Shown here piece by piece: positions 43,247 to 63,818 of a stretch of 64,000 nucleotides of DNA; the first letter of the stretch is position 1, and every line of letters starts with the position of its first letter. A program made the translations under genes and the position numbers. Source of the stretch: an uncultured Ruminococcus sp. (GTDB taxonomy: Bacteria; Bacillota; Clostridia; Oscillospirales; Ruminococcaceae). Under the pieces are notes generated by a model, which saw only the letters and a program-made list of their open reading frames with translations, was not told where the DNA came from and did no database searches. The stretch lies in the NCBI GenBank assembly GCA_947627175.1, contig CANQVA010000004.1, positions 62,001 through 126,000 on the forward strand. The letters run 5' to 3'.

Positions 43247-45427
43247 TTATGTCGTTGTTGTCGCTGTTGTTGTTCCTGAAGCTGTTGATGTTTCATAAGA
43301 AGAATGGGAAGTTGCGGTATTAGTACCTGTAGCCGTGCCTGTGGCTGTTCCTGTACCTGTAGTCGTGCCCGTTCCTGTACCCGTACCTGTTTCAGGAATT
43401 TCACCGTTTTCATCAGGAAGAACGGCAGTAGGTTCAACTCCGTTAAGACCATAACATTTCTGATATTCAAGAATTATATCACGAATCATATATTTTGAAT
43501 ATTCACCGCCTTCAATGACACCTGCAAAAGCGATTTCGGGGTCATCTGCCGGAGCAAATCCAATAAAAAATGAATTTTGTTTGCTTAAGTCGTTTTGGTC
43601 TGTCTGTGGAGTACCTGTTTTTATTGCAACGTCAAACCCGAGATTTGAGAGAGAAAATTTATATACAGGTACATTTCTTGAAGCGTCAATCATACCGCCC
43701 CTTATATAGTCATAGAGATTTTCGTCGGTGAGTTCAATTTTTTCGGCAACAGTCGGTTGTGTTTTATATATAAGTTCATCTGTGCCGTATTTATACAGAC
43801 TGTCAACAAGATATGGTTTATAGCGTATTCCCTCATTTGCAATAGTGCTTGCAACAACAGCCATTTGCAGGGGGGTCATACCGCAGTCATAGTTTCCGAT
43901 ACCCGCCTGAATTACGAAACCGACGTACCACGGAAGCCCACGTTCTGCAAATGTTTCAGGGTTGCAGAGGTATCCTTCCGCATCGCCTGTTTCAATTCCT
44001 GTGCTTGAGCCGAGCCCGTAAAGCTGTGCATATTTTGTGATGTTGTCTATTCCGAGACGGCTTGAAAGTTCATAGAAAAAGCAGTTGCATGACACCTGTA
44101 TTGCAGGACGTACAGAAATATTTCCGTGAGTACCTGTACATGAGAATGTTGAACCGTGGAAATTATAGTAATGTCCGCAGTAAAAAGTTGTATATGGTGT
44201 TATTATTCCCTCATTCAGACCAGCTGTAGCTGTAACTGTTTTAAATGTCGAACCGGGTCGGTAAAGACCGTAGGTACAGCGATTGAGAAGAGGTGCATCT
44301 TCATCGTTCATAAGTTCTTCATAATTAACTGCGTAGTCCTTGAGATTATACGTCGGAGCAGTAGCCATACCTTTTACTGCACCTGTTTTTGCGTCAAGTA
44401 CTACAATTGCACCTTTGTTTGCTTTTCCATACCAGTTTTTTTTCAGATAATCATTCAGAAAATTATCGAGTATTCCCTGTAGTTTAAGCTGATATGCACC
44501 ATCTACCGTAAGTTTGACTGTACTGCCCGAATTAGTTTCACTTATTGTATTTACGCCTGTTACAGCACCGTCAGAAACAGATATTTCTTCAAGACCGTTT
44601 TGACCTCTCAGTTCAGTTTCCATTGCACTTTCAATACCGCTTTTTCCGAGTGTATCATTAAGGGCATAGCCTTTTGTTTTTAGTTCGTCATATTCTTCTG
44701 CATATATAGGCCCTACAGTGCCTATTTCATGTGGCAGAATGTCGCCCCTTTCTATGCGTCTTTCAGAAACTTCAACCGCTTCAACGCCTTTGTAGAAATT
44801 TCCGAGTTCTTTTATATCCGTGATAGTTTTTGAATCAACGTTTTCTGCAAGTACAAGGTCATTGCTGTATGAAAATTCTTTTTCAATCATTTCATAACGG
44901 ATACCTGCTATTATACGTTTTTCCCTTTCGGTATAGGTATCGGCTATTTCATAATCTGCAATGAGTTTGTCAATGCAGTTTTCAGCTGTTGCATATACAT
45001 TCAGGTGTAAATTTTCAACAACGTCTGAAACGTCGTCTGTCGTAAATTCATATGGTTCTGTCATTGTTATAGGCAGGCTTTCCTTGAACTTAAAGCTATG
45101 TTTCAGTAAAGCCATATATACATTGATTAAAACTTCATTTCCCTTTTTTAAATCTTCCGGAAAAAAAGCCTTTTGCAGTACAATGTCATTCCGTTTGTCG
45201 TTTGTGACAATCACATTTCCATTGAAATCAATAATTTCTCCACGTGTTGCTTTTACTTCTTTTGTGTAGACGAGAGTATCATCATCTGTTTCTGATGTAC
45301 TTAAAGTATCACTTCCGACTACCTGTATTTTCATAAGTCTTATAGAACCACTGACAAAAGACAGCACAACGACAGCAACAACAATTACTGATTTGATAGT
45401 ATCTGATAAAGTTTTTATACAAATCAC
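43247..45427 (-). CDS. mrdA: Penicillin-binding protein 2, elongasome transpeptidase
   Basis: A 726-residue class B PBP. One N-terminal helix (VIVVAVVVLSFVSGSIRLM), then the pedestal starting TRGEIIDFNGNVIV. The transpeptidase domain has RPGSTFKTV with nucleophile Ser393 and Lys396, the SCN motif (QVSCNCFFYEL) and the third box IKTGTPQ. It cross-links wall peptides during side-wall growth with RodA (not in window). The C-terminus (about 680-726) is a Gly/Thr tail, GTGTGTGTTTGTGTATG and on, encoded by degenerate 6-base repeats. Last gene of mreB-mreC-mreD-PBP2. The GTG at 45427 is inside AAAGGAGTG, so the true start is uncertain and may be a rare codon a few bases on. Confidence 0.92.
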   Translation of the reverse strand: MICIKTLSDTIKSVIVVAVVVLSFVSGSIRLMKIQVVGSDTLSTSETDDDTLVYTKEVKATRGEIIDFNGNVIVTNDKRNDIVLQKAFFPEDLKKGNEVLINVYMALLKHSFKFKESLPITMTEPYEFTTDDVSDVVENLHLNVYATAENCIDKLIADYEIADTYTEREKRIIAGIRYEMIEKEFSYSNDLVLAENVDSKTITDIKELGNFYKGVEAVEVSERRIERGDILPHEIGTVGPIYAEEYDELKTKGYALNDTLGKSGIESAMETELRGQNGLEEISVSDGAVTGVNTISETNSGSTVKLTVDGAYQLKLQGILDNFLNDYLKKNWYGKANKGAIVVLDAKTGAVKGMATAPTYNLKDYAVNYEELMNDEDAPLLNRCTYGLYRPGSTFKTVTATAGLNEGIITPYTTFYCGHYYNFHGSTFSCTGTHGNISVRPAIQVSCNCFFYELSSRLGIDNITKYAQLYGLGSSTGIETGDAEGYLCNPETFAERGLPWYVGFVIQAGIGNYDCGMTPLQMAVVASTIANEGIRYKPYLVDSLYKYGTDELIYKTQPTVAEKIELTDENLYDYIRGGMIDASRNVPVYKFSLSNLGFDVAIKTGTPQTDQNDLSKQNSFFIGFAPADDPEIAFAGVIEGGEYSKYMIRDIILEYQKCYGLNGVEPTAVLPDENGEIPETGTGTGTGTTTGTGTATGTATGTNTATSHSSYETSTASGTTTATTTT
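43323..43391. repeat. 6-base repeats coding a Gly-Thr tail
   Basis: About ten tandem units of the form GTNCCN (minus strand GGNACN, Gly-Thr or Ala-Thr) at the 3' end of the PBP2 gene. Length changes would keep frame. Confidence 0.8.
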
Positions 45428-45467
45428 TCCTTTAGAGAAAACCGCACAAAACTGTGTGGCTGATAAT

Positions 45468-46034
45468 TTAACGCTGTTCGCCTGATTTTAAAGTTTCCTC
45501 AATAGTGAGGTGAGTTTTAGGCATAAGAAAATGATTTATCATTTTAAACAGCAGATAAATGAAAACTGATGATATAACCGTATACGCCCAGACTTTAAGA
45601 GTATATTGAGTAAATATACGTTCAGAGTTTTCATAATTCCATATCTCGTAGTAGAATTTGTAGTCAAGCAAGCACTGTATGTACGAAATAACAGCTGATA
45701 TAAATAAAAAGCTGACGAATTTATAACGGAGATAAAATTCAAATAGGAGTGATATAATTATACAACATATTGTAAGAATAACCGCATTGTATCCGAAAAG
45801 TTTTCCGCAGCTTATGTCAATAAGAAAACCGCATATTGCCCCGGTAACGGCAGAAGCATAAAGATTGTTTTTTACGGCAATACAGAGAGCAACAGGCACA
45901 AGCAAAACAGGTTTAAGCCATGTACCGGAACACATAATTATGAAACAGGCAAATATAACAACATAATATAAAAGCCACCTCAACGCTGTTTTGACATATA
46001 ATATACGATGTTCACGTGTAGTTTTCAGTTTCAT
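45468..46034 (-). CDS. mreD: Rod shape-determining protein MreD
   Basis: A 188-residue protein with five to six membrane helices and few conserved residues; YASAVTGAICGFLIDISCGKLFGYNAV is the MreD mark. It is part of the MreBCD complex that guides side-wall synthesis. The ATG overlaps the mreC stop by four bases and mrdA follows 40 bases later. Confidence 0.9.
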   Translation of the reverse strand: MKLKTTREHRILYVKTALRWLLYYVVIFACFIIMCSGTWLKPVLLVPVALCIAVKNNLYASAVTGAICGFLIDISCGKLFGYNAVILTICCIIISLLFEFYLRYKFVSFLFISAVISYIQCLLDYKFYYEIWNYENSERIFTQYTLKVWAYTVISSVFIYLLFKMINHFLMPKTHLTIEETLKSGEQR

Positions 46035-46888
46035 TCAGAAATCTCCCTTTTGCCCGTGAAATCGGTTATTACAAAAACGGAAGTGAGATTTGTTATATCA
46101 GCACACGGTTCTATTTCCGCATATGCAGAAAGACCGTTTGAATCCATGTCAACTTTTTTTACTTTTCCGACAGAATAGCCTTTCGGGAAAAGTCCGCTTG
46201 TGCCGTCGGTAATCATCAGATTATTTTTTTTCAAAGTGTTGTCTGTACGCAGATGCATAAGTCTTGTCATGCCGTTTTCTGCTGAAGTCACTGTACCTTC
46301 TATAATTCCCGTATCTTCACCCGATGATGAAGACTTTACCGCAATAGAAAGGTCAGGGGAGAGAATAGTTCTTACGGTTGAAAGATGTTCCGAAACTTCA
46401 ATTGTTATTCCGACAAGTCCTTCTGCTGTAGCTACAGGAAGATAAGGTTCAATTCCGTCATCAGAGCCGACATTTATTGTAAACGATTTGAAAGGGTCGT
46501 TTGCGGTGTAGCCTATAACTTTACAGAAACGTGAAGTTGTATAATCGGGGTGTGCTTTTTTTATTCCTACAAGTTTTCTGAGTTCTTCACATTCCGATTT
46601 CAATGCTTCATATTCGTTAAGTTGTTCATTCAGGTCTGTAACCTGTTTTTTAAGACTTTGATTTTCGTCATAAATTTCTTCTGCTCTTGAAAGTTTGTCA
46701 AGGGAAGTTTCCACTTTCATGCCTATGCCGTTTGAAACTGTCCGAAAAGGTTTTGATATAGTATTTATAAAAGATTCTACAGAAACGGAATATCCGCCTT
46801 TTGTTACGGAATATATCATTATCCCGACAAGAAAAGCGACAAAGGCAAGCAGAATTTTAAACCGTGTACTTTTTAAAAAATCACGCAT
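46031..46888 (-). CDS. mreC: Rod shape-determining protein MreC
   Basis: A 285-residue protein: one membrane helix near the N-terminus (ILLAFVAFLVGIMIYSV), a coiled coil (about 65-115, EEIYDENQSLKKQVTDLNEQ), then two beta-barrel lobes with CKVIGYTANDPFKSFTINVG and GLFPKGYSVGKVKKVDMDSN. It links MreB to the transpeptidase PBP2 outside the membrane. Twelve bases separate it from mreB. Confidence 0.94.
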   Translation of the reverse strand: MRDFLKSTRFKILLAFVAFLVGIMIYSVTKGGYSVSVESFINTISKPFRTVSNGIGMKVETSLDKLSRAEEIYDENQSLKKQVTDLNEQLNEYEALKSECEELRKLVGIKKAHPDYTTSRFCKVIGYTANDPFKSFTINVGSDDGIEPYLPVATAEGLVGITIEVSEHLSTVRTILSPDLSIAVKSSSSGEDTGIIEGTVTSAENGMTRLMHLRTDNTLKKNNLMITDGTSGLFPKGYSVGKVKKVDMDSNGLSAYAEIEPCADITNLTSVFVITDFTGKREISE

Positions 46889-46900
46889 CAGAACGCCTCC

Positions 46901-47917
46901 TTAATAATATTTGACGTTTTCTGTGAGAGCGTCCTGATAATCACTGATATGTTCAAGAATTTTGCCTGTTCCCTCTGCAACGCAGTCAAGCGGATATTCC
47001 GCTATATATACGGGCATACCCGTTTCACGGTTTATAAGTCTGTCAAGACCTCTGAGCAAGGCACTACCGCCTGATAGTGTTATTCCGTTATCAATAATAT
47101 CAGCAGAAAGTTCAGGCGGAGTTTTTTCAAGAGCTGATTTTATAGCATCAATTACCCTTGAAAGAGGTTCAACAAGAGCGTCACGTATTTCAGCGGAATT
47201 GACGACTATATTTTCGGGCAGTCCGTTAAGAAGATTTCGCCCTTTTATTTCCATTGATTCTTCTTTTGCACTCGGAAACGCCGAACCTATTTCAAGTTTT
47301 ATATTTTCGGCTGTCCGTTCACCTATAAGAAGATTGTATTTCTTTTTTATATAATTTATAATAGCATTGTCGAATTCATCGCCGGCACATCTTATAGAAC
47401 GTGAAGAAACGATACCGCCCAGCGATATAACAGCGACTTCACTCGTTCCGCCTCCGATATCAACAATCATACTTCCGGCAGGGGAATTTGTCGGAAGTCC
47501 TGCACCTATGGCTGCCGCCATTGGTTCTTCTATTATAAGTACATTGTTTGCCCCTGCTTTTTTACAGGCTTCACGCACGGCACGCCTTTCAACTGCTGTT
47601 ACTCCCGACGGTATACATATTATTACATTAGCTTTTGTGAAAATTGTACCTCTGAGAGCTTTTTTTATAAACTCCTGCAACATTGTTGTTGCTATGTCGA
47701 AATCGGCTATAACGCCGTCTTTCAGGGGTCTTACGGCGACTATTGAACCGGGAGTTCTTCCTATAATTTCCTTTGCCTCTTTTCCGACATAACGGCACTT
47801 GTCCGTCCTTGTGTTTACTGCAACAACAGACGGCTCTCTTATTATTATCCCTTTTCCCCTCAAATAAACAAGGGTATTTGTTGTACCTAAATCTATACCA
47901 ATATCTTTTGTAAACAT
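46901..47917 (-). CDS. mreB: Rod shape-determining protein MreB
   Basis: A 338-residue bacterial actin. [20 protein letters not shown] is the phosphate 1 loop, [19 protein letters not shown] the membrane-binding region, [19 protein letters not shown] phosphate 2, and [15 protein letters not shown] the adenosine motif. It forms membrane-bound filaments that position wall synthesis. First gene of the mreBCD-PBP2 operon, with its own promoter, and ATG 47917 behind AAGGAG. Confidence 0.96.
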
Positions 47918-47973
47918 TCTTTGCTCCTTAACTTCTGTATATTCATTTATTTTTATATTTAAATCACAATAAT

Positions 47974-48002
47974 ATTATATCACCAAATCTGAATACAGAC
48001 AA
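47974..48002 (-). promoter_or_regulatory. Promoter of the mreB operon
   Basis: Minus strand TTGTCT (47997-48002), 17 bases, TATAAT (47974-47979), with an extended -10 (TGATATAAT). Confidence 0.8.
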
Positions 48003-48062
48003 TAATATTTTAAAAGAGAAATTCGGATTTGCTGAAAATTTGTAAAAATATGAAAACAAAAT

Positions 48063-48111
48063 AAACCGAACAGACAGAAAAACTGTAAAATTTTCTGAAA
48101 AAATTCGGTTT
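48063..48111 (-). terminator. Terminator before the mreB promoter
   Basis: AAACCGAA (48063-48070) pairs with TTCGGTTT (48104-48111); an inner CAGAAAA/TTTTCTG stem extends it. Leftward it runs into ATTTTGTTTTC. It ends the DUF4321 transcript. Confidence 0.7.
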
Positions 48112-48122
48112 TTTGTGAGTTT

Positions 48123-48389
48123 TTATCCCTGAATAAGCTTTGGAGCAGTTTTATAAAATACAAAAAGTGCAATAAGAATCATAATAATTTGTGCTATGCT
48201 GATATTGAAAGTGAAGCCGATAGTTAAAGTAATTATACTTAAATTTATGTAAGGGTTGGCAGGAAGTGAAAATCCTCCTGAATATGCAAGCCACCCCATA
48301 GATTCACTTGCAGCCGCTTTGTCGGCAATGAGAGAACCGACTATTACTGCACCGACTATCAGCAATATCAGGTATAAAGTTTTTTTCAT
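48123..48389 (-). CDS. DUF4321 family membrane protein
   Basis: An 88-residue protein with two helices: KKTLYLILLIVGAVIVGSLI and NISIAQIIMILIALFVFYKT, joined by WLAYSGGFSLPANPYINLSI. This is the DUF4321 pattern, a small family common in Clostridia, often near shape and wall genes as here (between dut and mreB). No function is established. A terminator follows. Confidence 0.8.
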   Translation of the reverse strand: MKKTLYLILLIVGAVIVGSLIADKAAASESMGWLAYSGGFSLPANPYINLSIITLTIGFTFNISIAQIIMILIALFVFYKTAPKLIQG

Positions 48390-48424
48390 CTAATTCTAAT
48401 TCTCCTGTCTGCCTGAAGGCGTTT

Positions 48425-48865
48425 TTATTTTATACCGGAAGAACCGAATCCTTTTTCTCCCCGTCCGGTATCGGAGAGATTTTCGCTTACTTCAATTTCG
48501 GGAATAAGAATTTTTGTAGGGATAAGCTGTGCAATTCTCATTCCGTGTTCAACTACAAAAGGCTGTTTACCGTTATTTATAAGCGGAATAAACCACTCTC
48601 CCCTGTAGTCACTGTCAACCACACCGACGCAGTTGGCAAGGGTTACGCCATATTTTGACGCAAGCCCTGAACGTGGATATATAAGAAGTGCTATATCCTC
48701 TGAATCGGGTTCTGCTGTAATACCGACAGGTATCATTTTTATTTCACCGCACTCAATTGTTACAGGTTCGTCAAGACAGGCATATATATCAAGTCCTGCA
48801 CTTCCGGCTGTTGCTCTTGAAGGAATAATTGCCTTTTCGTCAAGTCTTTTAAATTTAAGTTTCAT
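48425..48865 (-). CDS. dut: dUTP diphosphatase
   Basis: A 146-residue trimeric dUTPase that removes dUTP and supplies dUMP. The five motifs are present: AGSAGLDIYA (1), IYPRSGLASKYG (2), NCVGVVDSDYRGEW (3, with the catalytic Asp), GMRIAQLIPTKI (4) and GRGEKGFGSSG (5, the C-terminal P-loop-like arm). It lies three bases after the U32 gene on the same transcript. Confidence 0.96.
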   Translation of the reverse strand: MKLKFKRLDEKAIIPSRATAGSAGLDIYACLDEPVTIECGEIKMIPVGITAEPDSEDIALLIYPRSGLASKYGVTLANCVGVVDSDYRGEWFIPLINNGKQPFVVEHGMRIAQLIPTKILIPEIEVSENLSDTGRGEKGFGSSGIK

Positions 48866-48868
48866 AAT

Positions 48869-50902
48869 TCATATACCTCTGTAATAAAGTCCTCTCGTGA
48901 TGTTTACGGACGGTTTTTTTCCTGAAAGAACGGCTTTTGTCTGTTCGGCGTTTTCGTCATAAAGTATTACAGCACCGAAAGATATATTACTGAATGAAGA
49001 AAGTCGGTCATACATATAAAGACAGTCGGAATTAAGTAATTCAACATAATGTGGCGAACATAATACAGGAAATTCACGGTCGGTGCGGTCAATAATTTTC
49101 ATTGTGCAGTTTATACAGTCGATTTCATTTTTTATAGGGCAGTTTCTTGTAAGCATAAGCGGAAAACGCCCGTATATTACTGCACCTGCCGGAATGTCTG
49201 TATGTATGTTGTTAATCTGCTGTAATTTTGCCTCATAGGAAAAAATAAAGTCCTCAAGACCGATATTTTTCATGTATTCGGCACTGAATGAATTGAAAAT
49301 ATTCAAAGTGAAATTTCCGTGAAGTATAAAACCAAGTTTTTTCCCTATGGCTATACAGTCGGGCGTATGGCACATAATGCGGTCAATACCGAATTTTTCC
49401 TTTATTGTTTTGAGAGAGGAAATAATTTTCTCTTCGTCCGTAATGAAACGTGGCGGTGAAAGAATTATTTTTTCCCTGTATTCCGCAAGCTCCGACAAAA
49501 ACGGCATAGAAAGACTTAAAGACGGGTCAAGTATTATATACTCGGAAATATCGACAGAAGCCTTTGCCTGTTCAATGTTACGGCAAAAAGTTCTTATTGG
49601 GAGTTTTTCGGGAGTATTATAACACTTTTTCGCAATAATAGGGGAGTAGTCTGTAATTGTTCTTTCAGGTGTATTTTTTTTGATTATTTCTTCTGTAAGT
49701 TCACTGATTACTTTACGGCGGAGTTCATTTATTTTTCCGACAGGGACAACAAGACCGTCGTCAATATCAGCAGTTATTTCATTAAGACTGAAAACCGTAT
49801 CACCCAGTTTAGAGAGTTGTTTTTTCAGCAAATTCAGGTCAGTCGGACGGTTTACGGCGTTTTCGGGAATATCTCCCTCGGCAGTTGCAGAAACACCGCA
49901 AGATGCAGTAATTTTTACAGGACGATTTTTCTTTATTTCCGCATGAAAAGATATGTCATATACTTTTCTTTCAAATCTGTATAATTCATGTACTTTCGGA
50001 ATAAGTTCCTTTGCGGAAATGACATCTTCTTTTTCACGTTTGCCGAACATATTTTTTCGTTTTCCCGTGAAATACCCGTCTGTAAAACCACTTCTTGAAA
50101 AAATTCCTTTAAGAAAATTCATATCGGGAGTTTGTTCGCTTATTGCTTTTTTAAGTTCATTAACAGCTGATGCAACATATTCGGGGCGTTTCATTCTGCC
50201 TTCTATTTTGAGTGAGTCGGCTATTTCCGAAAGTTCTGATATTTCGGGAATAAGCGAAAGGTCTTTGAGAGAGAGTGCGGAAAAATCCTTGTTTCCTGAT
50301 GCAGAAAAAGGAAGTCTGCACGCCTGACCGCAACAACCACGATTTGCAGACCGTGAACCCATAACAGCCGACATATAGCACTGTCCCGATACTGACATAC
50401 ATAATGCACCATGTACGAAAATTTCAGTTTCAATGCCTGTATCGCTTATTTTTTTTAAAACGTCTCTGTCAAGTTCACGGGCGGGAACTACTCTTTTCCA
50501 GCCGTTTTCTTTCAGAAATTCCGCCCCTGATGCTGTATGTACCGACATTTGCGTTGATGCATGGAGAACAGCGTCGGGAACACATTTTCTGATAAGTTCC
50601 GCACAGCCCCAGTCTTGAACTATATAAGCGTCAATGCCTGCCAAGGCGGTGAATTTTATGTATTCGCAGAAATCTTGTATTTCATCATCAGAAATTATCG
50701 TATTGACTGCAATATAAAATTTTGCCCCATATTTATGGCACATTCTTACAGCAGTTACAAGTTCACTGTCATCAAAATTTACTGCATTATTTCGTGCGGA
50801 AAAACGTTTTCCGCCTGCATACACAGCATTTGCACCTGAACGCAAGGCAGCACAGAGTGTTTCCATACTGCCGGCAGGAGCAAGTATTTCCATGTTTTTC
50901 AT
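48869..50902 (-). CDS. U32 family peptidase-like protein
   Basis: A 677-residue protein of the U32 family: MEILAPAGSMETLCAALRSG is the start of the TIM-like domain, AVLHASTQMSVHTASGAEFL is a central motif, and the four-Cys signature is in ALCMSVSGQCYMSAVMGSRSAN followed by RGCCGQACRLPF. The C-terminal half (about 300-670) is the extension seen in long U32 members. Relatives of this family (RlhA, TrhP) take part in Fe-S dependent RNA hydroxylation rather than proteolysis, so an RNA-modifying role is as likely as a peptidase. The gene overlaps the end of zapA by one base. Confidence 0.87.
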   Translation of the reverse strand: MKNMEILAPAGSMETLCAALRSGANAVYAGGKRFSARNNAVNFDDSELVTAVRMCHKYGAKFYIAVNTIISDDEIQDFCEYIKFTALAGIDAYIVQDWGCAELIRKCVPDAVLHASTQMSVHTASGAEFLKENGWKRVVPARELDRDVLKKISDTGIETEIFVHGALCMSVSGQCYMSAVMGSRSANRGCCGQACRLPFSASGNKDFSALSLKDLSLIPEISELSEIADSLKIEGRMKRPEYVASAVNELKKAISEQTPDMNFLKGIFSRSGFTDGYFTGKRKNMFGKREKEDVISAKELIPKVHELYRFERKVYDISFHAEIKKNRPVKITASCGVSATAEGDIPENAVNRPTDLNLLKKQLSKLGDTVFSLNEITADIDDGLVVPVGKINELRRKVISELTEEIIKKNTPERTITDYSPIIAKKCYNTPEKLPIRTFCRNIEQAKASVDISEYIILDPSLSLSMPFLSELAEYREKIILSPPRFITDEEKIISSLKTIKEKFGIDRIMCHTPDCIAIGKKLGFILHGNFTLNIFNSFSAEYMKNIGLEDFIFSYEAKLQQINNIHTDIPAGAVIYGRFPLMLTRNCPIKNEIDCINCTMKIIDRTDREFPVLCSPHYVELLNSDCLYMYDRLSSFSNISFGAVILYDENAEQTKAVLSGKKPSVNITRGLYYRGI

Positions 50903-51267
50903 TAAATGCTATCCTTTAGTTGTTTCAGCTTTACCATGTTTTCAAGCTGTTCAATTTTTGATTTGAGGACTTCAATTTCTTTCAGTGCGGCATCACGTTC
51001 AATACGTGCCTTTCCAGCCTCATCAACATATTCCTTTGTCTGGTTGCGTATACTGTCAAGATGCTGATTGGCTTTGTTGAGGTCGTCGAGAACAGTCAAT
51101 GCAACCATGATTGAAGCAGTATAAGGAGAAGAACCGCTTCCCGAATTCATAATATCATTTATCTTTGTTTCCAACGCTCTTGCAAGTGCAAAAACATAAT
51201 TCGGAGATTCGGAGGTTTTCAGCTTGTACTCCTTTCCGCAGATAATTACTTTGACATCATTAAGCAT
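50902..51267 (-). CDS. zapA: Cell division protein ZapA
   Basis: A 121-residue protein: the globular head NDVKVIICGKEYKLKTSESP and a C-terminal coiled coil (about 60-115). The family binds FtsZ and bundles its filaments at the division ring. SASIMVALTVLDDLNKANQ-type helix leads into the coil. Position between lexA and the U32 gene, with a ribosome site AAAGGGAAAGGAA, suggests one transcript from murC to dut. Confidence 0.88.
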   Translation of the reverse strand: MLNDVKVIICGKEYKLKTSESPNYVFALARALETKINDIMNSGSGSSPYTASIMVALTVLDDLNKANQHLDSIRNQTKEYVDEAGKARIERDAALKEIEVLKSKIEQLENMVKLKQLKDSI

Positions 51268-51309
51268 TTTGAAAATATTCCTTTCCCTTTAATTTAATTT
51301 AATTTAAAT

Positions 51310-51891
51310 TTAATAGTAACGTTTCAGACCTATTACACGTCCGAGAATTTCCACATTATCAAGAATAATAGGTTTCATTGTGTCATTTTCGGGCTGTAGT
51401 CTGAAATGACCTTCTTCCTTGAAAAAACGTTTTATGGTAGCTTCCTCATGACCTATAAATGCAACAACAATATCACCGTTTTCAGCATATTCGGACTTTC
51501 TGACAATTACTACATCACCATCAAATATACCTGCGTTTATCATGCTTTCCCCTCTGACTTTAAGGGCAAAAAGTTCATCGGGATTTATTCCCGGGGCTTC
51601 AAAACCAATATATCCCGTAACATCTTCAATTGCTGTTATCGGCTGACCTGCTGTTACAGTTCCGATAACAGGAACAGAAGTTATAGGACTGTTGGGGAGT
51701 TTAAGCGAACGGTTCAGACTGCCTGATTTTTCAATCAGCCCTTCTTTTTCAAGAATTTTAACATAGCGGTAAGCAGTAGAAGTTGACTTGAACCCCATAG
51801 CCTCCATAATTTCCCTTACAGAGGGAGAAATGCCGTCGCTTAAACGGCTTTTAATGTAATTGAAAACAGCTATTTTCTTATCATTTGGCAT
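51310..51891 (-). CDS. lexA: SOS repressor LexA
   Basis: A 193-residue repressor-protease. The N-terminal winged helix is VFNYIKSRLSDGISPSVREI; the autocleavage site is the Ala-Gly in VIGTVTAGQPITA, the catalytic Ser is in VRGESMINAGI and the Lys in EATIKRFF. RecA-activated self-cleavage releases the DNA-damage genes. It sits four bases after murC and I see no GAAC-NNNN-GTTC operator before it, so self-control may act at a distant promoter or be absent. Confidence 0.94.
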   Translation of the reverse strand: MPNDKKIAVFNYIKSRLSDGISPSVREIMEAMGFKSTSTAYRYVKILEKEGLIEKSGSLNRSLKLPNSPITSVPVIGTVTAGQPITAIEDVTGYIGFEAPGINPDELFALKVRGESMINAGIFDGDVVIVRKSEYAENGDIVVAFIGHEEATIKRFFKEEGHFRLQPENDTMKPIILDNVEILGRVIGLKRYY

Positions 51892-51895
51892 ATTA

Positions 51896-53311
51896 TTATT
51901 CCTTTCCTGAAAGTTTTTTTAAAATCATACGTGCTATTTTATAAGCATCGCCACAACCGAGAGTAATTACAAGGTCGCCCTCACTTGCATTTTCACAGAC
52001 ATAATCACAGACTTGACTGAAATTAAAATATTTTCTTTCGTCTGTCCATTCTTCCTCCTCATTCTGCGGAAACCATATACATTCCGGAATTTTTTCAGCA
52101 AGATGACGTGTGAATATTCCGAAAGTGTTTTTTTCACGGCTTCCGAAAATATCCGTCAGTACAGTTTTGTCGGGAATTTGCAGAACTCTTGCGAAATCGT
52201 CAAGCAGAATTTTTGTGCGTGAAAAAGTGAACGGTTGAAAAATTGCCCATACTTTATTGAATCCCATATTCATAGCGGAAGTGAGTGTTGCCTCAAGTTC
52301 AGCAGGGTGGTGGGCGTAGTCATCAACAACTGTTATGCCTTTTTCATAACCGAGTTTTTCAAAACGTCTTTTTGCTCCTCTGAAATCTTCAAGTCCTTTT
52401 TTGCAATATTCCATTGATATTCCGAGTTCGTTTACAACTGCCACAGATGCGAGGGCGTTAAGAATATTGTGGTTTCCTGCAACGTGAAGTGTTATAGTAA
52501 TTACAGATTCGCCGTTGTGGTATACGTCAAATTGTGTTTCCATGCCTGAAATATGTCTGATGTTTTCGGCATACCAGTTGTTTTTATCTGAAAGTCCGAA
52601 AGTAATGATTTTTTTGTCAAGTCCTTCAACAGCTGTCATTGTGTTTTTGTCGTCGCCGTTTACTATCATGATTCTTGAAGTCTTTTCCGCAAATTTACGG
52701 AAAGAAGCAATGACATTTTCAAGGGTACCGAAATAGTCAAGGTGGTCTGCGTCTACATTAAGAATAACAGAGATGTCGGGAGCGAGTTTAAGGAAATGAT
52801 CTTCAAATTCACATGATTCACATACAAGAATATCGCTTTTTCCGGCAATTCCACTGCCGTTTATGCAAGGGAGTTTTCCGCCGATATATGCGGACAAGTC
52901 AACCCCGGCGGTGTAAAGAATCTGAGTAATCATTGAAGTAGCAGTAGTTTTTCCGTGAGTTCCCGAAACGCATACAGCATTGTTGTACCAGTTTGTAACA
53001 ATGCCGAGGAGTTCAGCCCTCTCCAAAACGGGCACACCGCTTTTTCTTGCTGCCATTAGTTCGGGATTATTCTCCATAATGGCGGCGGTGTGTACTATAA
53101 GGTCAGCACCGTCAATATTTTCGGCTCTCTGTCCGATAAATACTTCAATTCCCATTTTTCTTACAGCGTCAAGAGTTTCTGTTTCGTTGTTGTCAGAACC
53201 TGTAAGAAAATATCCTTGCGAATGGAGAATCTGTGCAAGGGGATACATTCCTGAACCGCCTATGCCTATGAAGTGAATATGTTTTTTGCCTTTTAAAATG
53301 TTTATATCCAA
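51896..53311 (-). CDS. murC: UDP-N-acetylmuramate--L-alanine ligase
   Basis: A 471-residue Mur ligase that adds the first L-Ala to UDP-MurNAc. HFIGIGGSGMYPLAQILHSQ binds the nucleotide sugar, VSGTHGKTTATSMITQIL is the ATP loop, and VDDYAHHPAELEATLTSAM and FQPFTFSRTKIL are conserved late motifs. It begins with TTG 53311, six bases after AAAGGTGA. It appears to head a leftward unit murC-lexA-zapA-U32-dut, back to back with spoVG. Confidence 0.95.
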   Translation of the reverse strand: MDINILKGKKHIHFIGIGGSGMYPLAQILHSQGYFLTGSDNNETETLDAVRKMGIEVFIGQRAENIDGADLIVHTAAIMENNPELMAARKSGVPVLERAELLGIVTNWYNNAVCVSGTHGKTTATSMITQILYTAGVDLSAYIGGKLPCINGSGIAGKSDILVCESCEFEDHFLKLAPDISVILNVDADHLDYFGTLENVIASFRKFAEKTSRIMIVNGDDKNTMTAVEGLDKKIITFGLSDKNNWYAENIRHISGMETQFDVYHNGESVITITLHVAGNHNILNALASVAVVNELGISMEYCKKGLEDFRGAKRRFEKLGYEKGITVVDDYAHHPAELEATLTSAMNMGFNKVWAIFQPFTFSRTKILLDDFARVLQIPDKTVLTDIFGSREKNTFGIFTRHLAEKIPECIWFPQNEEEEWTDERKYFNFSQVCDYVCENASEGDLVITLGCGDAYKIARMILKKLSGKE

Positions 53312-57000: not shown

Positions 57001-58131
57001 ATGTCGGTTTATCTTGATAACGCCGCAACTACAAAGCCGTGTGCCGAAGCAGTTAAAGCGATTCTTGAAACTGTAACGGAAAATTTCGGGAATCCGTCCT
57101 CACTTCACAGGGCAGGTCTTAATGCACAGCTTGCTGTTGACAAGGCAAGGAAAATTATAGCTGATTCAATAGGTGCTGACAACGGGGAGATATATTTTAC
57201 TTCGGGTGCGACTGAAAGCAATAACCTTGCACTGCGTGGTATTGTTTCGGCTTATGGAAAGAGAAAAAAGAAAATAATTATTTCATCAGTTGAGCACGCA
57301 TCAGTTGAAGAAACGGCTTCCGCCCTTGAAAAACAGGGTTTTGAAGTGGTGAGGGTAAGTCCACGTGATGACGGTCAGTTTTATGCGGATGACTTTGCAG
57401 GTGTATGTGATAATGATACTTGTATAATAAGTATGATGTTTGTCAATAATGAAACAGGTCATATTCTTCCGGTCGGAGAAACTTTTAAAAAAGTGAAAAG
57501 GCGATTTCCTGAAATAATAACGCACTGCGACTGTGTTCAGGGTTATATGAAAATTCCTATACGTGTAAATAATCTTTGTGCGGACATGATGTCTTTAAGC
57601 GGACACAAAGTCCATGCAGTAAAGGGCGTTGGCGTACTCTACATTAAAAAGGGAGTGCGTTTGATTCCGATAATTACAGGCGGACATCAGGAAAAGGGAG
57701 TACGTTCGGGAACTGAAAGTGTTCCGTTGATTGTGTCATTCGGTTCAGCCGTAGAAAAGTATTCTCCTACTGTTTCTGAACGTTTTGAGAAAGTTTCTTC
57801 ACTCAAAAAATATTTGCTTGAAAGACTTGCGGAAATTGACGGCGTTATAGTAAATTCACCTGAAAATGCATCTCCGTATATAGTGAACATTTCAGCGTGC
57901 GGAAAGCGTTCTGAAATAATGCTTCATTTTCTTGAACAGAAAGAAATATATGTTTCAAGCGGTTCTGCCTGTTCAAAGGGACAGAAAAGCGGAGTGCTTG
58001 AACAGTTTGGAATCAAAGGAAAAAATGCAGACAGTGCTGTAAGGGTCAGTATGACTTCCGAAACGACTGAAAAGGAACTTGATGCTTTTGCGGATGCTCT
58101 CCGTGAGGGTATTGAAAAAATAAGAGGCTGA
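57001..58131 (+). CDS. Cysteine desulfurase, paired with ThiI
   Basis: A 376-residue PLP enzyme that takes sulfur from cysteine as a persulfide. SVYLDNAATTKPCAEAVKAI opens it; EHASVEETA, VNNETGHILPV, and SLSGHKVHAVKGVGVLYIKK (with the PLP Lys) are family motifs; the active Cys is in VSSGSACSKGQ. The group is the short-loop IscS/NifS type. With thiI 18 bases downstream, sulfur transfer to tRNA 4-thiouridine and thiamine is the likely use, as for the dedicated desulfurase of Bacillus. Confidence 0.94.
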   Translation: MSVYLDNAATTKPCAEAVKAILETVTENFGNPSSLHRAGLNAQLAVDKARKIIADSIGADNGEIYFTSGATESNNLALRGIVSAYGKRKKKIIISSVEHASVEETASALEKQGFEVVRVSPRDDGQFYADDFAGVCDNDTCIISMMFVNNETGHILPVGETFKKVKRRFPEIITHCDCVQGYMKIPIRVNNLCADMMSLSGHKVHAVKGVGVLYIKKGVRLIPIITGGHQEKGVRSGTESVPLIVSFGSAVEKYSPTVSERFEKVSSLKKYLLERLAEIDGVIVNSPENASPYIVNISACGKRSEIMLHFLEQKEIYVSSGSACSKGQKSGVLEQFGIKGKNADSAVRVSMTSETTEKELDAFADALREGIEKIRG

Positions 58132-58149: not shown

Positions 58150-59328
58150 ATGAAAGAAATTGTACTTGCAAAATATGGCGAAATAGTTCTCAAAGGACTT
58201 AACAAAAGGTCTTTCGAGGATATGCTCACGAAAAATATAAAACGCAGACTGAAAAGTCTTGGACGTTTTGAACTTTTTTTCGCACAATCTACTACATATA
58301 TTACTCCTCTTGACGATGATATTGAACTGAGTGAAGTTGTTGACCGTGTGGGAAAAATTTTCGGTATAGCGGCACTTTGCCGTGCGTGTGTGTGTGAAAA
58401 AGATTTCAGCGATATAACCGAAAAAAGTATAGACTATTTGAAAGATGTTTTAAGCAGTGTTGAAACATTCAAGGTAAATGCAAAGCGTGCAGACAAAGCT
58501 TTTCCTATGAAATCCCCCGAAATTTGTGCGGAACTTGGCGGAATACTTCTTGAAAAATTTCCTAATCTTAAAGTAGATGTTAAAAATCCGCAAATTACAG
58601 TTACTGTTGAAATACGTGACACAAATGCATATATTCATGCGGAAAATATAAAGGGAGCAGGCGGTCTGCCTGTAGGTAGCAGCGGAAAGGCGATGCTGTT
58701 GCTTTCCGGAGGAATAGACAGTCCCGTTGCAGGCTATATGATGGCAAAAAGGGGCGTTAATATTACGGCAATACATTATGTAAGTCCGCCTTATACTTCC
58801 GACAGGGCTTTACTCAAAGTCGAACAGCTTTGTGAAAAACTGACTGACTACTGCGGAGGAATTGCCTTCTATTGTGTACCATTCACAGAAATTCAGGAGG
58901 CTATAAAGGACAATTGTCCCGAAGAATATTTTACTATTATAATGCGTCGCCTTATGATGGAAATTGCACAGAGGATTGCTGAAAAGGATAATTGCCTCGC
59001 CCTTATTACAGGTGAGAGCGTCGGACAGGTAGCAAGTCAGACAATGGCGGCTATTTCATGCACAGATGCAGTTTGCAGAATACCCGTATTCCGTCCGCTT
59101 ATTGGAATGGATAAAACAGAAATTATTGAAATTGCACGCAAGATAGATACTTTTGAAACTTCTGTACTTCCGTATGAAGATTGCTGTACTGTTTTCACTC
59201 CCCGTCACCCTAAAGTAAGACCTTCTCTTGAAGATGTTGAAAAGGCACAGGGAAAATTTGATTTTGAACCGCTTATTCAGAAAGCAGTTGAAAATACAGA
59301 GATGAAAACTTTCAGTTATACAAAATAA
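58150..59328 (+). CDS. thiI: tRNA 4-thiouridine synthetase ThiI
   Basis: A 392-residue enzyme. An N-terminal ferredoxin-like and THUMP part (about 1-165) is followed by the PP-loop ATPase LLLSGGIDSPVAGYMMAKRG, which adenylates U8 of tRNA. ISCTDAVCRIPVFRPLIGMD and YEDCCTVFTPRHPKVRP are the late conserved motifs. There is no C-terminal rhodanese domain, as usual in Firmicutes, so the persulfide Cys comes from the adjoining desulfurase. It ends the operon. Confidence 0.95.
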   Translation: MKEIVLAKYGEIVLKGLNKRSFEDMLTKNIKRRLKSLGRFELFFAQSTTYITPLDDDIELSEVVDRVGKIFGIAALCRACVCEKDFSDITEKSIDYLKDVLSSVETFKVNAKRADKAFPMKSPEICAELGGILLEKFPNLKVDVKNPQITVTVEIRDTNAYIHAENIKGAGGLPVGSSGKAMLLLSGGIDSPVAGYMMAKRGVNITAIHYVSPPYTSDRALLKVEQLCEKLTDYCGGIAFYCVPFTEIQEAIKDNCPEEYFTIIMRRLMMEIAQRIAEKDNCLALITGESVGQVASQTMAAISCTDAVCRIPVFRPLIGMDKTEIIEIARKIDTFETSVLPYEDCCTVFTPRHPKVRPSLEDVEKAQGKFDFEPLIQKAVENTEMKTFSYTK

Positions 59329-62483: not shown

Positions 62484-63818
62484 ATGGAAATTAAAAAATC
62501 ACTGAAACGTATTTCTGCCTTTTTGTCAGGTTTGCTTATGACTGTATCAGTCGGCGGACATTGTGCTAATGCAGTCGGCGAAATACCGGGAGAAGACCCC
62601 TATTTTTACGGAGAAAATGAATATATGCCGTCATATGAAGATAATCAGTCATATGAAAATAATTTCGGAAATGAATATGATACGGAATACGGTAATACGC
62701 CCTATGTTGAAGGCAGTACACAAAATACTACAGAGAATACTACAGAAAATACAACCGCTTCTTCACAGCGTACAGAGGTAAGAAAAGGCAAGGCTGTTAT
62801 TGATGATTATGATTCAAGTCTTTCAGGTATGAATTATGAATTGTCAATCCCTGAATATACGTATTATGAAGATTTTTCAGATAATACACTTAATGAACAG
62901 CAGGCAGAACAGGCAAAGAAAGATATTGTTATTTCTTTGCGTGAAGGAAATCCCGTTACATCAGTAAGACGTGCGGAAGATGCTGACCTTACGGAAATAG
63001 GACACGTCGGAGAAATTCCCGTTTCCAATGAACAAGATGTATCTTCAGAAGTATCGGGAGAATTTACATTTGTAACATATGGTTGGGGTCATGGTGTAGG
63101 AATGAGCCAGAACGGTGCTAATTTCTATGCAACTTATGCAGGTTGGTCATATCAGGATATTCTCGCACATTATTACCCTAATACCTATCTGATGAATACA
63201 GGACTGACAGATTATGAAGAACTTACTATAAACGGAGAACCGGCAGGTGACACTGTTTCTGTAGTTGCACAGATTGTGAATAGGGAAATAGGCGGTTCTA
63301 TGCACTATGAGGCAATAAAAGCACAGGCTGTTGCTGTTTACACTTATATTAAATATCACAATGACGATTCCGCCGACCTTCTCGGAAAGCCCGACCCTCC
63401 GCAAAATGTTATTGATGCTTGTACGGAAGTACTCGGAGAAGCTCTCTATTACAACGGAAGTTATGCACTTACAATGTTTTCTGCCTCAACCGGTGGCTGT
63501 ACAGCAAACTGCGGTGAAGTTTTCTATGCTGATATTCCTTACCTCATAAGCGTACCAAGTGACTATGATGAGGCTTATGACCCACATTATGGCACTGTTA
63601 CATATTATCCTGCATCAGAAGTAAAAAGACTTATAGAGGGCGAATATAATATAAGACTATCTGATGACCCCGGAAAATGGATTCAGCCGACTTATTCACA
63701 ACAGACAGGATATGTGACGGATGTTAATATTGATGACCAGCTGTCAATACGAGGTTATGAACTTAAATTGTTACTTGATTTGAAATCATCAAAATTCAAT
63801 CTGACATATACTTATTGA
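62484..63818 (+). CDS. Secreted SpoIID/LytB domain protein, permuted order
   Basis: A 444-residue exported protein. The signal peptide is about 1-31 (ending GGHCANAVG). Residues 35-180 are low complexity: Tyr/Glu/Asn-rich, then Asn-Thr-Thr repeats. SpoIID-family segments follow in an unusual order: the motif GWGHGVGMSQ (200-209) with YQDILAHYYPNTYL comes first; then VVAQIVNREIGG with the candidate catalytic Glu268, YEAIKAQAVAVYTY, MFSASTGGCTANCGEVFYAD and IPYLISVPSDYD; the protein ends GYELKLLLDLKSSKFNLTY. In SpoIID the GHGVGMSQ part is last. SpoIID cuts peptidoglycan lacking stem peptides. Position after two sortases suggests a wall role at the same sites. Likely same operon. Confidence 0.85.
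   Translation: MEIKKSLKRISAFLSGLLMTVSVGGHCANAVGEIPGEDPYFYGENEYMPSYEDNQSYENNFGNEYDTEYGNTPYVEGSTQNTTENTTENTTASSQRTEVRKGKAVIDDYDSSLSGMNYELSIPEYTYYEDFSDNTLNEQQAEQAKKDIVISLREGNPVTSVRRAEDADLTEIGHVGEIPVSNEQDVSSEVSGEFTFVTYGWGHGVGMSQNGANFYATYAGWSYQDILAHYYPNTYLMNTGLTDYEELTINGEPAGDTVSVVAQIVNREIGGSMHYEAIKAQAVAVYTYIKYHNDDSADLLGKPDPPQNVIDACTEVLGEALYYNGSYALTMFSASTGGCTANCGEVFYADIPYLISVPSDYDEAYDPHYGTVTYYPASEVKRLIEGEYNIRLSDDPGKWIQPTYSQQTGYVTDVNIDDQLSIRGYELKLLLDLKSSKFNLTYTY

Follow-up and report, generated by a model that had tools for sequence, protein, structure and literature searches.

A SpoIID/LytB domain in permuted order

Within the window analysed here (the whole 64,000-nucleotide stretch of contig CANQVA010000004.1 from an uncultured Ruminococcus sp.), genes for a cysteine desulfurase, ThiI and two class B sortase-type proteins are followed on the same strand by a gene for a protein with a SpoIID/LytB domain (Table 1). 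Sequence comparison confirmed that this open reading frame (ORF) holds one complete SpoIID/LytB domain, circularly permuted, in its C-terminal 250 residues. From the N-terminus to the C-terminus, the encoded protein consists of a putative signal peptide, a region rich in Thr, Asn and Glu, the conserved motif spanning residues 103-125, and the C-terminal domain. Over the whole protein, the TIGR02669 (SpoIID_LytB) model scores 114.6 bits against a cut-off of 83.3, split in two stretches, and PF08486 scores 27.3 bits (gathering cut-off 23), with profile positions 17-49 of 97 covered; the threshold of TIGR02870, the equivalog model of stage II sporulation protein D, is missed (111.6 vs 234.75 bits, in three stretches).

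Table 1. Features of the permuted-domain gene and its upstream neighbours, in window coordinates
Feature	Position	Strand	Basis
Permuted SpoIID/LytB-domain protein, 444 amino acids	62484..63818	+	ORF; TIGR02669 114.6 bits
Putative signal peptide, residues 1-30, ending CANA	62484..62573	+	Basic and hydrophobic stretch
Conserved N-terminal motif, residues 103-125, upstream of domain	62790..62858	+	Invariant residues in 78 sequences
Relocated GHGVGMSQ segment (residues 192-236), found at the C-terminus of ordinary SpoIID	63057..63191	+	Matches 5i1t_A 283-326
New joint, old C-terminus to old N-terminus, about residues 237-244	63192..63215	+	Rotation scan; exact limits inferred
Catalytic block with the former N-terminal strand, residues 245-362	63216..63569	+	Aligns to 5i1t_A at 63-112 (profile 160-209) and from 146 (profile from 214)
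E268	63285..63287	+	Counterpart of C. difficile SpoIID catalytic E101; 260-295 aligned to 5txu_A 93-128
Domain remainder, residues 363-444, ending in strand SSKFNLTY	63570..63815	+	Matches 5i1t_A up to residue 280
Class B sortase, 612 amino acids	59593..61431	+	TIGR03064 161.3 bits, cut-off 153.75
Class B sortase-like protein, 338 amino acids	61435..62451	+	PF04203 38.6 bits (cut-off 26.6); TIGR03064 114.5 bits, below cut-off
ThiI, tRNA uracil 4-sulfurtransferase, conserved neighbour	58150..59328	+	TIGR00342 397.5 bits, cut-off 264.5; synteny
Cysteine desulfurase (NifS/IscS superfamily), conserved neighbour	57001..58131	+	Best TIGR03402 338 bits, below equivalog cut-off; synteny

The first-pass annotation, made from the window sequence alone, had reported a seemingly circularly permuted order of the motifs, and all of them are indeed found in one open frame: GWGHGVGMSQ (residues 200-209) and HYYPNTYL (229-236) are followed by VVAQIVNREIGG (260-271), AIKAQAVA (277-284), STGG (335-338), PYLISV (352-357) and, finally, SSKFNLTY (435-442), the strand that leads into the GHG motif in ordinary SpoIID; residues 245-362 hold EELTING in addition to the four motifs from VVAQIVNREIGG to PYLISV. 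The usual linear order, in which the catalytic block precedes GHGxGMS (a customary arrangement with no formal model criterion), is not that of the window protein and, because the segment order is permuted, we file the domain as a permuted variant.

A phmmer comparison with chain A of C. difficile SpoIID (5i1t_A) maps residues 311-442 to 149-280 (independent E-value 4.9e-6) and residues 192-236 to 283-326 (1.2e-5), with a third piece, 260-295 to 69-104, that is weak by itself (38). When the profile of 78 relatives is compared with the same chain, all three pieces are significant: profile positions 160-209 match 63-112 (7.8e-4), 214-348 match 146-280 (9.5e-15) and 98-142 match 283-326 (8.5e-8). 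Because the end of the protein meets chain residue 280 and the moved segment begins at 283, the new ends are placed in the hairpin before GHG; the join spans chain residue 326 back to 63. In a rotation scan against a model built from 54 standard-order alignment rows (the long branches L233 and L234 were left out), the window domain scores 178.5 bits in its native order and reaches a plateau of 262 bits when cut at residues 239-251. Rotation raises the score against this model by 62-92 bits in all 55 permuted rows and, conversely, 53 of the 54 standard rows score higher against the permuted model once rotated. The three-piece match and the gain on rotation support the earlier proposal that the old termini were joined and new ones opened. 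Given that profile models of the usual order score permuted variants in fragments, such variants are easily overlooked. We found no paper on a circularly permuted SpoIID within the open-licence PMC literature.

In the conserved N-terminal motif, K103, Y109, S112 and Y118 are invariant across the alignment of 78 sequences, from which L001-L006, L012, L081 and L088 had been left out (own or canonical copies, unknown residues, contig-cut sequences). The motif type in these sequences is W.KA....YD.SLSL..YE, and it is visible also in some permuted proteins of other genera.

Occurrence and gene neighbourhood

Loci of relatives were collected by a contig scan, isolates included, and the best 80 of 125 were kept, 76 of them named Ruminococcus. 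By profile, the order is permuted in 79 of these 80 loci, the remaining one (L081) being cut at a contig end with the GHG part missing; a strict letter pattern finds no GHG motif in L082 and L086, and L081 and L088 are contig-cut. Of the 125 genomes from the genus, 121 contain a match at E<1e-100, some of these being contig-cut, so that the order is not visible in all; the other four, drafts that are 68-88% complete, comprise three with weak matches (E 1.4e-13 to 5e-10) and one without a match. Two of the 121 (G002 and G055) have a gap of about 80-96 residues at the joint, with the frame open.

At the level of the family, matches at E<1e-90 occur in 45 of 396 genomes from 10 genera including that of the window, and sequences retrieved from each of the other nine genera proved to be permuted as well. 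Weaker matches in 28 further genomes of the same family are in standard order in 27 cases, the exception being L127 from genus g2. At E<=1e-15, the Ruminococcus profile, which could miss diverged members, added one permuted genome each from 295 genomes of the order (G707) and 391 genomes of the class (G1130). With a broader profile, matches spanning both parts were found in at least 27 of 150 genomes of the G707 family (28 matches; all 23 that were fetched are permuted), and the permuted members of this second family sit apart in the tree; in the G1130 family, 1 of 16 genomes has such a match. A sample of 299 genomes of the phylum, searched at E<=1e-20, yielded a both-part match in the window's own genome only. 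The search across genomes suggested in the first-pass annotation has, then, recovered the permuted order in the genus, in nine further genera and in another family, from samples that overlap and are non-random. Altogether, 231 ORFs of at least 150 amino acids were classified by order (shorter ones, such as L163, fall outside the classification); they represent 196 distinct domains, of which 129 are permuted and 67, canonical SpoIIDs included, are standard.

The single match in the G1130 family (L162:5017-6117) is a permuted domain that falls beside L205, a member of the second family, in the trees, and represents either a transfer or a misplaced contig. Another second-family permuted protein, L142:5305-7629, has about 500 residues before the domain, with one stretch that reads like a membrane segment; no NCBIfam family was named for its first 416 residues, and several of its relatives are similar in length.

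Upstream of these genes we looked for the cysteine desulfurase, ThiI and the two sortases. All 75 Ruminococcus loci that offer 2 kb of room have two sortases nearest upstream; where 5.5 kb is available, ThiI is upstream in 62 of 64 loci (L052 and L080 are without it). A sortase is also nearest to the permuted gene in 9 of 9 loci with room from other genera of the family and in 16 of 19 loci of the second family (the exceptions are L196, L205 and L210). Among the standard-order loci L122-L161, a sortase is nearest in 21 of 26 with room; four of the other five are fused to a sortase, and L141 has only ThiI and the desulfurase. ThiI is present at 18 of 28 standard-order loci. The standard-order relatives occupy the same chromosomal place as the permuted ones.

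Single ORFs that combine a class B sortase with a standard-order SpoIID domain include L134:2626-6600, L130:3359-6496 and L216:573-3317, among others; L134 also carries a CinA-like part that scores below the CinA cut-off.

Downstream, RsmH is the first of nine cell-wall cluster proteins in 69 of the 70 Ruminococcus loci in which 2 kb of sequence follows. In the window genome, this cluster consists of RsmH, a penicillin-binding protein (PBP), MurE, MraY, an FtsW-type protein, MurG, MurA and two proteins without a family, the assignments being above cut-offs except for the PBP (SpoVD model, below) and the FtsW-type protein (just below). A same-strand blastp search at 1e-8 detected none of the cluster proteins downstream in L122-L162 or L196-L235, where the available room ranges from 179 to 5693 bases. 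Among the loci covered, an association with the division and cell-wall cluster therefore holds inside the genus only. Peptidoglycan and shape genes flank the locus: the minus strand of the window at 43247-53248, before it, encodes PBP2-like, MreC, MreB and MurC proteins, and the RsmH to MurA genes lie after it.

History of the order switch

For phylogenetic analysis, the blocks of all domains were put in one common order, and L116, which is short, was left out. A quick tree of 111 rows implies four order changes, or three without the two long rows L233 and L234. On the resulting 109-row quick tree, grouping every permuted row in a single clade is not rejected by the approximately unbiased (AU) test (p 0.362), and the same holds for a clade of just the 24 permuted rows that do not belong to the Ruminococcus group. 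Under the constraint on those 24 rows, a tree was obtained that exceeds the free (unconstrained) quick tree by 24.9 log units; as this better tree unites the non-Ruminococcus permuted rows, two switches would suffice and, given that the free quick tree is not optimal, the p-value of 0.362 represents a weak test. A careful tree was built from 78 rows, after 33 of the 111, long or near-duplicate and picked once the quick tree had been viewed, were dropped. It shows three changes (3-3 in the 5-95% range of 200 bootstrap trees), at least two of which are forced by starred branches. In this tree, the Ruminococcus group (100/100) is placed among standard-order rows of its own family. Its exact sister is weakly supported (86/65); close to the group in the trees are standard-order proteins from Oscillospirales-like genomes, such as L131, L125 and L134, which come from the same ThiI-sortase locus and, unlike the permuted ones, carry the GHG segment after the catalytic block.

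These trees are best read as showing two or three switches of order; more than one switch is likely, with gain and reversal indistinguishable. We lean, by a small measure, towards a history in which the domain switched its order more than once at one conserved locus, with the same hairpin before GHGxGMS opened each time, so that it would be unusually free to be re-cut there and would have been used repeatedly beside sortases. A single ancient permutation shared by all permuted members, with the scatter in the tree caused by error, is an unlikely alternative that nevertheless retains appreciable weight: it agrees with the unrejected clade on the 109-row quick tree, non-optimal as that tree is, and the careful test falls barely under 0.05 (p-AU 0.049, a marginal rejection). 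It is at odds with the changes forced on the careful tree, where all permuted rows are united in 0% of the 200 bootstrap trees, and with the position of the Ruminococcus group.

Natural permutations with both orders alive at one locus are, in our judgement, uncommon material. With such pairs, the effect of segment order on how a peptidoglycan lyase folds, is tethered and reaches its substrate can be tested directly, and the permuted SpoIID/LytB domain lends itself naturally as a test case for circular permutation in proteins.

Proposed function and alternative readings

The order seen in SpoIID, with the catalytic block followed by the GHG segment, was altered inside a locus where ThiI and class B sortases accompany permuted and standard-order relatives alike. 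Comparison of the two orders shows that a linker of about eight residues now connects the old ends and that the new ones opened in the hairpin before GHG, presumably through duplication and trimming; none of the 231 classed ORFs represents a duplication intermediate in which GHG flanks the domain on either side. The fold and the active site are expected to have been kept, and hence the protein most likely cuts the glycan strands of peptidoglycan like SpoIID, via E268. The gene product would be exported, its N-terminal part may hold it at the cell surface, and it would act where the neighbouring sortases attach surface proteins, as synteny and the sortase-SpoIID fusions in standard-order relatives suggest. 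The window genome has a separate canonical SpoIID, so the window protein would be a paralogue for another task and not a replacement of the sporulation protein. Taken together, the protein is probably an exported, wall-held glycan-strand lyase that works with sortases and is a paralogue of sporulation SpoIID. The findings also suggest that sortases and SpoIID-type proteins of gut and rumen bacteria work in partnership, something that has received little notice. Besides these two copies, the window genome has a weak third match, L007/L008, which lies in a 463-residue ORF and is in standard order by profile positions.

The window protein shares with the SpoIIDs of known structure (5i1t, 5txu and 4rwr) all three conserved segments, the catalytic Glu and the predicted fold of the catalytic block; it differs from them in being permuted, sortase-adjacent and below the SpoIID equivalog cut-off. 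According to passages of the respective studies, C. difficile SpoIID requires E101 and acts on peptidoglycan only jointly with the amidase SpoIIP (PMC6221140), and B. subtilis SpoIID requires E88 (PMC6635528). Use of the domain outside sporulation is described, in passages of the latter source, for the SpoIID homologue of the Chlamydia-related Waddlia chondrophila, which cuts peptidoglycan and peptide-free glycan; there it is a septal protein, and these passages do not mention a sortase link (PMC6635528). The zinc site is probably absent from the window protein, because the C. difficile ligands C140, H145 and C146 (index 116, 121 and 122) fall where the family profile is unaligned and H134 lies at its edge.

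Several observations weigh against the proposed lyase and its partnership with sortases. After KAQ..AA, where the SpoIIDs 5i1t and 4rwr have Arg, 52 of the 55 permuted rows have Tyr, so that substrate handling may differ. Permuted genes without an upstream sortase match exist (L196, L205, L210 and L162), and fusion to a sortase, present in 21 of 48 distinct standard rows of ThiI-sortase loci, occurs in none of the 129 distinct permuted domains; the association with sortases may reflect no more than gene proximity. The cell-wall cluster genes are directly downstream in the genus itself only. Finally, the structural model built with 78 sequences is middling (predicted local distance difference test score, pLDDT, 67; predicted template modelling score 0.46) and poor in the GHG segment.

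LytB is said to modulate an amidase. The family model covers both names, SpoIID and LytB, and the neighbouring sortases require no lyase, all of which would suit a permuted domain that binds peptidoglycan or modulates another wall enzyme without cutting glycan itself. We consider such a role improbable, given the residues retained in the permuted rows: the catalytic Glu, the counterpart of E268, is present in 55 of 55 (and in 55 of 56 standard rows), the Lys of KAQ in 54 of 55 and the GHG His in 55 of 55. Far less credible is the possibility that there was no permutation within the fold and the N-terminal GHG segment serves another chain through a domain swap, or another task: packing of this segment is not apparent in the model, but the joint is short, both parts are strongly conserved, and each of the 231 classed ORFs holding both parts has one GHG match and no second one, nor does a standard-order SpoIID domain, which the first-pass annotation had named as a finding that would refute its proposal, lie elsewhere in the window protein. 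An assembly or gene-calling artefact, conceivable in a draft genome of 70 contigs, is refuted by the recurrence of the permuted order across public genomes, in 79 of 80 loci that include isolates and in further genera.

A single-sequence fold of the window protein was discarded (pLDDT 32). The 78-sequence model contains a predicted strand at window residues 438-443, and SleB-type lytic transglycosylases (4fet and 4f55) align to its residues 143-257 and 141-238 only, with middling Z scores.
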